A stretch of 64,000 bases of DNA, from assembly GCA_019358945.1 (NCBI GenBank), contig JAHHIE010000033.1:1-64000 (forward strand), read 5' to 3'. Source of the DNA: Stenomitos rutilans HA7619-LM2. Lineage in GTDB: Bacteria; Cyanobacteriota; Cyanobacteriia; Leptolyngbyales; Leptolyngbyaceae. The notes beneath the pieces were generated by a model, which was not told the DNA's origin, searched no databases, and worked only from the letters and a program-made list of their open reading frames with translations. Positions 31,816 through 33,681 of the stretch are shown here, one piece after another. Made by a program: the position numbers and the translations under genes. How positions within the stretch are numbered: the first letter of the stretch is position 1; every line of letters starts with the position of its first letter.

Positions 31816-33681
31816 ATGACATCTGGGATTGAGACTCTACCAGTAGAGGTTGTGCATCTCATTGCAGCGGGAGAAGTGATTGATTCCCTGGCGGCAGTGG
31901 TGCGAGAACTGGCAGAAAACGCGCTTGATGCTGGTGCAACCCGCATTACGATCGCACTTTCGCCTGATCAATGGCGGCTACGGGTAGCGGACAACGGTGT
32001 CGGCATGACGCTATCCGACCTGAAGCAAGCCGCCGCCCCTCACAGTACCAGCAAAATCCGAGACAGCCATGATCTTTGGAAAATTACCAGCCTGGGCTTT
32101 CGAGGCGAAGCTCTCCACAGCCTTGCCCAACTCGCCGATCTAGAAATTTTGAGCCGTCCAGCAGGGTCTAGTGAAGGCTGGCAAGTGCAGTACGACGTAC
32201 AAGGAGAGCCACTGCGGTTAGAGCCTGTTGCGATCGCACCTGGCACAGTTGTCACAGTCGATCGCTTGTTTGGTCACTGGGTTGCCCGTCGTCAGGGCTT
32301 GCCACCCTTAGCCCAGCAGATGCGAGCCGTACAAGCTACCATTCATCAACTGGCGCTCTGTCACCCACATGTCACCTGGCAGGTGCAGCAAACCGATACT
32401 CGCAGCGAAACACCCCGTGATCGGGATTGGTTTCAGCTTTGGGCTGGCACAACCGCACGGCAAATCTTGCCCCAAATGCTGCGCGATGTACAGGCAGACG
32501 CTTTGCAGGAGTTAACGCTAGAAATCACCGAGTTTGAAAAGGCTAAAGGATTAAGGATGAAGGATGAAGAAAGTCAATCCCCCTTTTATCCTTTATCCTT
32601 TAGCCCTTATCCTTCTCTCTATCTCCTCCTTGGCTTGCCCGATCGCTGCCATCGCCACCGTCCAGATTGGATTCGCGTGGCAATCAATGGTCGCTTTGTA
32701 CAAATGCCAGAGTTAGAGCAGACCATTCTGGCTAGCTTTCGGCAAACCGTGCCGCGCGATCGCTTCCCCGTTTGTCTCGTGCATCTCCAGATTTCCCCAG
32801 AGCACATCGACTGGAACCGTCATCCTGCCAAGGCCGAAATTTATCTGCATCACCTTAGTTTCTGGCGAGAACAGGTTGCTAGCGCGATCGACCAGGCGCT
32901 TCGCCTCAGCCCGATGAACCTAGCCGATACTCTCTATTCGCAGCGAGTTGGCACGCTGTTAAAAGCGGCTGAAGCTGAAAGTGGGTATGGCGAGAGAAAA
33001 ATTCAGGAAGTAGGGAAGGCAGAGGGAGCAGGAGAGGCAGAAGGCAGGGAAGCACGGGAGGCAGGGGAAGCAAACGCAACTCAAAACTCAACACTTGAAA
33101 CTCAAAACTCTCTTCGCCCCACTCCCTACTCCCCACTCCCCACTCCCCTCAAAGCCCTCGCCCAGGTACACAACACTTACATCCTCGCCGAGCATCCTAC
33201 TGGCGTTTGGTTGGTGGAGCAGCACATTGCCCATGAACGCGTGCTCTATGAGCAGTTGTGCGATCGCTGGCAGCTTGTATCTCTCGAACCAGCAATCATT
33301 TTGAATCAACTGGCGGTGGCTCAAGTAAAACAACTGCAACGACTGGGCTTAGACGTTGAACCTTTTGGCGAAGCCGTGTGGATGGTGCGATCGGCTCCTG
33401 CTATCTTGGCACAGCGAGACGATTGCACAGAAGCTCTGCTAGAACTCAGTTTGGGCGGAGACTTACAAACGGCGCAGGTGGCTACAGCCTGTCGGAGCGC
33501 CATCCGCAACGGGACACCGCTCACCCTCCACGAGATGCAAACCCTACTCAATCAGTGGCAGCAAACCCGCCATCCGCGCACCTGCCCTCACGGTCGCCCC
33601 ATTTCCCTCACGCTGGAAGAATCATCGCTATCCCGCTTCTTTCGTCGTCATTGGGTGATTGGGAAGAGTCATGGGATTTAA
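31816..33681 (+). CDS. mutL: DNA mismatch repair protein MutL with two repeat-derived insertions
   Basis: 621 residues. GHKL ATPase motifs: VRELAENALDAGA, DNGVGM and LGFRGEALHS; the transducer domain follows and the C-terminal dimerisation domain has VWLVEQHIAHERVLYEQL, ATACRSAIRNG and CPHGRPI. The endonuclease motif DQHAxxExxxxE reads EQHIAHERVLYE, so the first Asp is Glu and the Ala is Ile. Residues about 241-267 (AKGLRMKDEESQ...PSLYLLL) in the transducer domain and about 398-445 (QEVGKAEGAGEAEG to YSPLPTPLK) in the linker are encoded by the dispersed repeat. The second lies in a naturally flexible linker; the first is in the folded domain. Confidence 0.92.
   Translation: MTSGIETLPVEVVHLIAAGEVIDSLAAVVRELAENALDAGATRITIALSPDQWRLRVADNGVGMTLSDLKQAAAPHSTSKIRDSHDLWKITSLGFRGEALHSLAQLADLEILSRPAGSSEGWQVQYDVQGEPLRLEPVAIAPGTVVTVDRLFGHWVARRQGLPPLAQQMRAVQATIHQLALCHPHVTWQVQQTDTRSETPRDRDWFQLWAGTTARQILPQMLRDVQADALQELTLEITEFEKAKGLRMKDEESQSPFYPLSFSPYPSLYLLLGLPDRCHRHRPDWIRVAINGRFVQMPELEQTILASFRQTVPRDRFPVCLVHLQISPEHIDWNRHPAKAEIYLHHLSFWREQVASAIDQALRLSPMNLADTLYSQRVGTLLKAAEAESGYGERKIQEVGKAEGAGEAEGREAREAGEANATQNSTLETQNSLRPTPYSPLPTPLKALAQVHNTYILAEHPTGVWLVEQHIAHERVLYEQLCDRWQLVSLEPAIILNQLAVAQVKQLQRLGLDVEPFGEAVWMVRSAPAILAQRDDCTEALLELSLGGDLQTAQVATACRSAIRNGTPLTLHEMQTLLNQWQQTRHPRTCPHGRPISLTLEESSLSRFFRRHWVIGKSHGI
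32538..32615. repeat. Dispersed repeat inside mutL (transducer domain)
   Basis: AAGGCTAAAGGATTAAGGATG and GGATGAAG units are followed by their near-complement TTTTATCCTTTATCCTTTAG and CTTATCCTT. Read in frame by mutL. Confidence 0.8.
33007..33150. repeat. Composite dispersed repeat inside mutL (linker)
   Basis: Purine arm (GGAAGGCAGAGGGAGCAGG and relatives), ACTCAAAACTC core repeated, pyrimidine arm CACTCCCTACTCCCCACTCC. Read in frame, giving an acidic Glu/Ala/Gly stretch, then a Gln/Asn/Thr stretch, then a Pro/Ser-rich stretch. Confidence 0.85.

Follow-up and report, generated by a model that had tools for sequence, protein, structure and literature searches.

Cyanobacterial STRR sequences lie mainly outside genes. 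For Anabaena/Nostoc PCC 7120, one report places 68% of the GGGGA(C/T)T repeats in intergenic DNA, with a significant intragenic fraction, and finds fewer G-rich repeats than expected on the coding strand; the term 'in-frame' occurs nowhere in its main text (PMC4692102). A repeat survey in Leptolyngbya searched units of 1–6 nt (PMC8619395), and the open-licence literature yielded no cyanobacterial report of heptad arrays that form protein segments in frame. Repeats that are read as protein have been described for Rickettsia, where palindromic elements (RPE) are dispersed in frame in many unrelated genes and form families of ~150 bp, each with a conserved peptide (PMC10969869). MutL itself provides two further points of reference: its linker is disordered in E. 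coli and yeast (PMC6902014), and a short tandem repeat with a 6-nt unit within mutL has been proposed as a switch in Salmonella and E. coli (PMC2955026).

The mutL gene analysed here lies in a stretch of 64,000 nt (the window) on contig C24 of a 7.28-Mb cyanobacterial genome, called our genome below, and carries two repeat blocks (Table 1). As in STRR, tandem heptanucleotide units are dispersed genome-wide in many copies and mostly outside genes, and the GGGGAGT family, where it occurs in genes, reads CCCCACT on the sense strand in 8 of 9 cases. In contrast to what is reported for STRR, however, the arrays stand in frame in conserved enzymes, recur in the same loop slots with differing families and follow a fixed order from purine to pyrimidine. 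With RPE they share the in-frame insertion into many unrelated genes, and block 1 is an inverted repeat; yet the arrays are built of 7-nt units from many families and share no one conserved peptide, and block 2 does not form a hairpin. The heptad composites work like RPE but are not members of that group. The proposed mutL switch of Salmonella and E. coli is likewise a short tandem repeat within the gene, but the unit here is 7 nt rather than 6 nt and the arrays sit in a loop and in the linker; the 6-bp repeat lies in another part of the gene. Block 2 resembles the disordered linkers in that it falls in a linker of very low model confidence, whereas its content is repeat-derived and varies between species of one genus. 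With respect to the terminal inverted repeats of transposable elements and MITEs, inverted-repeat structure is seen in block 1 but not in block 2.

Table 1. Positions in the window of mutL, its repeat arrays and two other repeat stretches
Feature	Position	Strand	Remarks
mutL, DNA mismatch repair protein	31816..33681	+	intact, 621 aa, no internal stops
Block 1, purine-rich heptad arm	32538..32569	+	in frame, transducer-domain loop
Block 1, pyrimidine-rich heptad arm	32583..32615	+	complementary in part to the purine-rich arm
Block 2, G-rich array, 7- and 9-nt units	about 33010..33075	+	gives the acidic stretch of the linker
Block 2, AACTCAA-type array	33078..33112	+	gives polar TQNSTLETQNS
Block 2, CCCCACT array, 4.6 copies	33117..33148	+	gives RPTPYSPLPTP
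MutL_C domain (Pfam match)	33157..33519	+	residues 448-568; after block 2, frame kept
Perfect five-unit CCCCACT array in MFS transporter gene (18050-19681, -)	18810..18844	-	in frame, about residues 276-293
Composite of similar units, outside predicted genes	36289..36476		comparison case

The original prediction, made from the DNA letters of the window, held that two repeat blocks are read in the mutL frame, one in the transducer domain and one in the interdomain linker, and this proved correct: the protein runs through both without an internal stop. It matches the Pfam families HATPase, DNA_mis_repair and MutL_C as well as the NCBIfam MutL equivalogs. A single open frame covers the GHKL ATPase, the transducer and the C-terminal dimerisation domain. 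Block 1 corresponds approximately to residues 241–267 and has similar copies elsewhere in the window (1523–1568, 4091–4119, 26536–26579 and 45539–45567); block 2 corresponds approximately to residues 398–445 of the interdomain linker and is likewise represented by copies elsewhere in the window. The further claim, that spacer-type repeats may be read as protein segments while the gene stays open, is supported. Both blocks consist of 7-nt arrays, purine-rich first and pyrimidine-rich last, and the predicted succession of acidic, polar and Pro/Ser-rich stretches in the linker corresponds to the G-rich, AACTCAA-type and CCCCACT arrays. What has to be amended is the description of mutL as essential: it is a mismatch-repair gene and usually dispensable.

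The periodicity itself is beyond chance. The best lag-7 run in mutL, 24 matches in 28, was reached in none of 2000 first-order Markov randomisations of the gene (highest 19), and shuffling the codon order within each block reproduced the observed lag-7 score in 0 of 2000 trials for block 1 and block 2 alike. At the DNA level the blocks differ: block 1, an inverted repeat, outscores each of 200 shuffles in folding (z −4.39), whereas block 2 folds no better than its shuffles (z +1.11), and a single hairpin type for both was rejected on this ground. A comparison of mutL with plasmids gave no match. An assembly artefact is unlikely because other genomes have arrays at the same MutL sites, such as the linker array of Stenomitos frigidus ULC18.

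The structural setting was examined in an AlphaFold2 model built from 48 aligned sequences, whose N-terminal half matches solved MutL structures in a fold comparison. In the model, block 1 lies between the transducer-domain strands 230–236 and 267–273, with pLDDT block means of 58 and 48 across residues 241–260, and pLDDT is 33–39 across residues 371–440, the stretch containing block 2. Both blocks are thus predicted to fall in low-confidence loop or linker stretches. Further downstream, the endonuclease motif reads EQHIAHERVLYE (window 33217–33252, residues 468–479). The canonical motif is DQHA(X)2E(X)4E; the match is close but not exact, differing from DQHA at its start, and E468, Q469, H470 and I471 are invariant across 48 aligned cyanobacterial MutL sequences.

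How old are the two blocks? After exclusion of fragments below 300 aa, L092 and L093 among them, our MutL orthologue set comprised 81 distinct sequences. For the analysis of the two sites, six orthologues below 500 aa were removed, four running off contig ends (L016, L028, L086, L090) and two with frame breaks outside both sites (L021, L088), leaving 75 including our own. In the alignment of these, site 1 spans 10–87 aa and site 2 spans 12–67 aa. An array with at least 18 of 21 lag-7 matches is present at one of the two sites in 14 of the 75, and in none of the 75 in the rest of mutL. Other periods are found at the two sites at lag 8 (5/75), lag 9 (2/75) and lag 12 (1/75), and in the rest of the gene at lags 6 and 12 (1/75 each). 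The arrays at the sites vary by lineage, with AAAATTC in L036, CCAATTA in L044, AAAATCC in L087 and AACACTC in Nostoc linckia (L050). In orthologues more distant than the genus, the two sites are taken up by a short loop, by different sequence or by different repeats. The MutL proteins of Laspinema, Oscillatoria and Phormidium (L069, L071–L073, L075, L076) have short loops of 15 and 22 aa and those of Fischerella (L058, L060, L061, L066) short loops of 17–23 and 17–20 aa, all free of lag-7 arrays, suggesting that repeat entry is restricted to certain lineages.

Six relatives from the same genus allow a finer dating: Lyngbya sp. HA4199-MV5 (G006, MutL L031), Leptolyngbya sp. ES-bin-22 (G005, L039), Tildeniella nuda (G002, L032), S. 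frigidus ULC18 (G001, L033), Leptolyngbya sp. FACHB-321 (G003, L034) and the metagenome-assembled Centralia_MAG_596 (G004, L035). The site-1 segment measures 40 aa in our genome, HA4199-MV5 and ES-bin-22 and 39 aa in T. nuda, and both arms of block 1 are visible in these four, the second arm of T. nuda belonging to another family. Elsewhere in the genus block 1 decays: S. frigidus has 34 aa with the first arm only, and FACHB-321 32 aa without a clear array. The basal member of the genus on the five-protein tree described below, the Centralia MAG, has a 17-aa loop and lacks block 1. Most likely, block 1 entered on the genus stem after the split of the Centralia MAG or was lost in that lineage; its entry probably belongs to the genus stem rather than to this species. 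Orthologues sharing the same segments at similar length in conserved, non-repeat sequence had been named as the outcome that would speak against a repeat origin. Same-genus relatives do share the length at site 1, but their sequence is repeat-derived and diverging. At site 2, content and length both differ among the genus members, and block 2 appears to turn over faster than block 1.

What about the rest of the genome? The original prediction had treated repeat entry into mutL as something unusual. We sampled 1.259 Mb of our genome, 859 kb in sample 1 (795 kb plus the window) and a fresh 400 kb in sample 2, with genes predicted by a simple purpose-built hexamer model. Of the 115 period-7 islands found, 37 lie within 25 predicted genes and have coding-like sequence on both sides. 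The 79 islands of sample 1 comprise 35 intergenic ones, 11 at gene edges and 33 inside predicted genes, 28 of the last (in 18 genes) with coding-like flanks on both sides; for the 36 islands of sample 2 the numbers are 15, 8 and 13, with 9 of the 13 (in 7 genes) flanked in this way. Each sample has only 0–3 islands at lags 5, 6, 8, 10, 11 and 13 and 0–9 at lags 9, 12, 15 and 16, while lags 14 and 21, multiples of 7, are also elevated in sample 1. A Pfam match above the curated cut-off was obtained for 23 of the 25 array-bearing genes, the other two giving no match (L141) or a weak one below the cut-off (L154). The list includes, besides mutL, RecN, RsmG, RecJ, squalene-hopene cyclase (SHC), arginine decarboxylase, Mfd, PanC/Cmk, L-aspartate oxidase, a penicillin-binding protein, an MFS transporter, MnmE, a glycosyltransferase, a WD40 protein, IleRS, PutA, a CobB/CbiA-type enzyme, a histidyl-tRNA-synthetase-family protein, a CheA-type kinase and an AIR-carboxylase protein. 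Scaled up, this would amount very roughly to 145 array-bearing genes per genome, from a sample that is not random because its contigs were picked from those named by an earlier repeat search. A bias towards DNA repair, hinted at by 4 of the 18 genes in sample 1 (mutL, mfd, recJ, recN), was dropped when sample 2 gave 0 of 7.

Compared with the coding fraction alone, genes contain fewer arrays than expected: 50 of 123 lie inside, against about 78% coding sequence, and the other 73 lie outside predicted genes or across a gene edge. Such a depletion fits what a selection filter predicts. The genome has 57 occurrences of the pattern GGGGAGTGGGGAGT and 19 of the reversed pattern, itself a heptad array. 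Within the window (58822–58868), a predicted gene of 270 codons terminates within an AGTCAGG array, which provides its last residues and its stop codon. A perfect 29-nt tandem duplication at 51250–51307 is of a non-heptad type.

The arrays follow rules that hold inside and outside genes. Neighbouring arrays are ordered from purine-rich through mixed to pyrimidine-rich in 27 informative pairs, with 1 pair disagreeing (14 against 1 within genes, 13 against 0 beyond them), and this order accounts for the acidic, polar and Pro/Ser-rich succession in the MutL linker. Since 7 and 3 are coprime, the three frames of a strand all yield, by arithmetic, the same cyclic heptapeptide from a pure heptad array; an array of at least three units therefore has two coding states, sense and antisense, instead of six. 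Among the 50 in-gene arrays, the unit is open in both directions in 22, in one direction in 27 and in neither in 1; where it is open one way, 24 of the 27 are read in the open sense and 3 against it, a strand bias that is largely forced by the read-through of a gene. Units open both ways are more frequent inside genes (22/50) than elsewhere (18/73; Fisher p 0.03), and units closed both ways are rarer (1/50 versus 8/73; p 0.08).

Five array-bearing genes were compared with their orthologues in ten relatives, SHC being matched in nine. In MutL as in RecJ, Mfd, MnmE, SHC and IleRS, one and the same loop holds differing repeat families in different species. The RecJ loop is almost empty in the Centralia MAG (L173) and in G021 (L174) and has differing inserts in seven other genomes; in G014 the gene is divided between two contigs. 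Mfd has a 51-nt slot with AGCGGTC units in our genome and S. frigidus, GGGAGTC in the Centralia MAG and GGGGAGT in T. nuda; ES-bin-22 and HA4199-MV5 have CTC-rich units in 45 nt, the slot of FACHB-321 is longer and contains an AGGCAGA array, and G021 lacks an array. The MnmE slot follows the NKxDL motif. In SHC, the loop holds an in-frame AAAGGAT hairpin of the same type as MutL block 1 in S. frigidus, T. nuda and ES-bin-22, a decayed version in the Centralia MAG and other composites in our genome, HA4199-MV5 and FACHB-321; this family change looks like a replacement of the whole insert. A peptide similar to that of MutL block 1 also occurs in a glycosyltransferase of our genome. When register was compared across family changes in place, 12 of 14 pairs, often from closely related genomes, matched best at shift 0, but only 2 of the 4 pairs comparing the AGCGGTC with the G-rich units of Mfd did so; a family change in constant register is weakly supported by these alignments.

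IleRS, normally an essential enzyme, allows a comparison of filled and array-free loops. The loop is short and array-free in S. frigidus, G017 and G021, with short loops without arrays also in the Centralia MAG and G014; the 8-codon loop of S. frigidus stands against array-filled loops elsewhere, with flanks that are 94% identical. One type of insert is common to our genome and ES-bin-22, and HA4199-MV5, the sister of our genome, has another. Placed on a tree of five other proteins (3277 columns), with support of 38 and 75 at two genus nodes, this distribution would call for multiple gains or exact losses as well as at least one family change. The assignment of gains and losses depends in part on these weak nodes. 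The IleRS inserts of G010 (L240), which belongs to another genus, and of ES-bin-22 (L239) are closely alike and both end in DNSKLKTQNSKLK, which could reflect allele transfer or the same element entering twice.

Taking these observations together, we favour, at a probability of about 0.8, an explanation in which STRR-type composite heptad elements occupy two permissive places in MutL as a result of repeated entry into genes, selective retention and later change of family. Composites would enter genes over and over, and selection would retain those copies whose sense strand is free of stops, that preserve the frame and that lie in loops. Arrays inside a slot may later switch family through replacement or homogenisation. 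The slots are directly visible in the alignments, and the depletion, strand and location of the arrays fit such a selection filter; entry and replacement are what we infer from them. The inserts would act as disordered, replaceable spacer protein, with no dedicated function indicated.

An obvious alternative is that the loops grew by ordinary replication slippage, with no dispersed element entering. Both MutL sites vary in length even in lineages without a detectable array, and some loop arrays have another period, as the lag-8 and lag-9 cases show, which is what such low-complexity expansion could produce. However, the dominant period is 7 and not 3 or 6, the unit families found in genes occur outside genes too, and the order within composites is identical in both settings; the 8-codon IleRS loop of S. 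frigidus beside array-filled loops with flanks of 94% identity also speaks against it. We therefore consider slippage alone unlikely. Selection could instead have favoured longer or more charged MutL linkers, linker length affecting the passage of roadblocks on DNA: E. coli MutL with shortened linkers loses roadblock bypass (PMC6902014), and repair is abolished in yeast when the linkers are shortened or scrambled (PMC6393296). Against such tuning, cutting the E. coli MutL linker by 40% produced no mutator phenotype (PMC6902014), linker length and content are unconserved even within the genus, and the same arrays occur in RecJ, MnmE, SHC, IleRS and others without such a role, making it a very improbable account of the arrays.

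Could the arrays instead be a mutator switch, in which slippage alters the number of heptad units in mutL, shifts the frame and removes the C-terminal domain, flipping mutability between normal and high? The CCCCACT array of 4.6 units precedes MutL_C, gain or loss of one unit would cause a frameshift, and the 6-bp repeats of Salmonella mutL are a precedent (PMC2955026). But the three broken mutL genes examined, in one genome per species, break near residues 310, 463 and 305–323, at neither array site (among them are G015, outside the orthologue set, and G030, which is L021 of the set). All 75 orthologues read through both sites, which counts little, as the 500-aa cut favours intact frames. The same arrays are also found in numerous unrelated genes; in one of these, that of IleRS, an off state would be expected to kill the cell. 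We give the switch hardly any credence.

With entry, retention and family change of composite heptad elements as the preferred reading, in-frame heptad arrays within conserved enzymes appear to be a habit of the lineage and not a peculiarity of MutL, because many other conserved enzymes carry arrays, and the repeats that occupy a given loop differ between related species. The original observation is true, but it is one instance of a lineage-wide phenomenon: 25 predicted genes, that of IleRS among them, carry arrays in 1.259 Mb, and the claim that the MutL case is special does not stand. A more far-reaching and still doubtful idea is that the composites of purine, mixed and pyrimidine arrays form a dispersing class of their own, moving as units, exchanging families in fixed slots and established in frame in an estimated 100–200 genes within a single genome, aided by the frame-independent reading of 7-nt units. 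If so, nature would have in them a steady supply of disordered protein loops.

Finally, we would like to point out what these arrays mean beyond a single gene. They provide a case outside Rickettsia in which repeat DNA repeatedly becomes protein, in conserved and partly essential enzymes. For those who build alignments of MutL and other markers in these cyanobacteria, they come with a warning: such alignments contain loops that track repeat turnover, not protein descent. And as close relatives carry array-free and array-filled alleles of one loop, the origin and tolerance of disordered inserts become directly testable.
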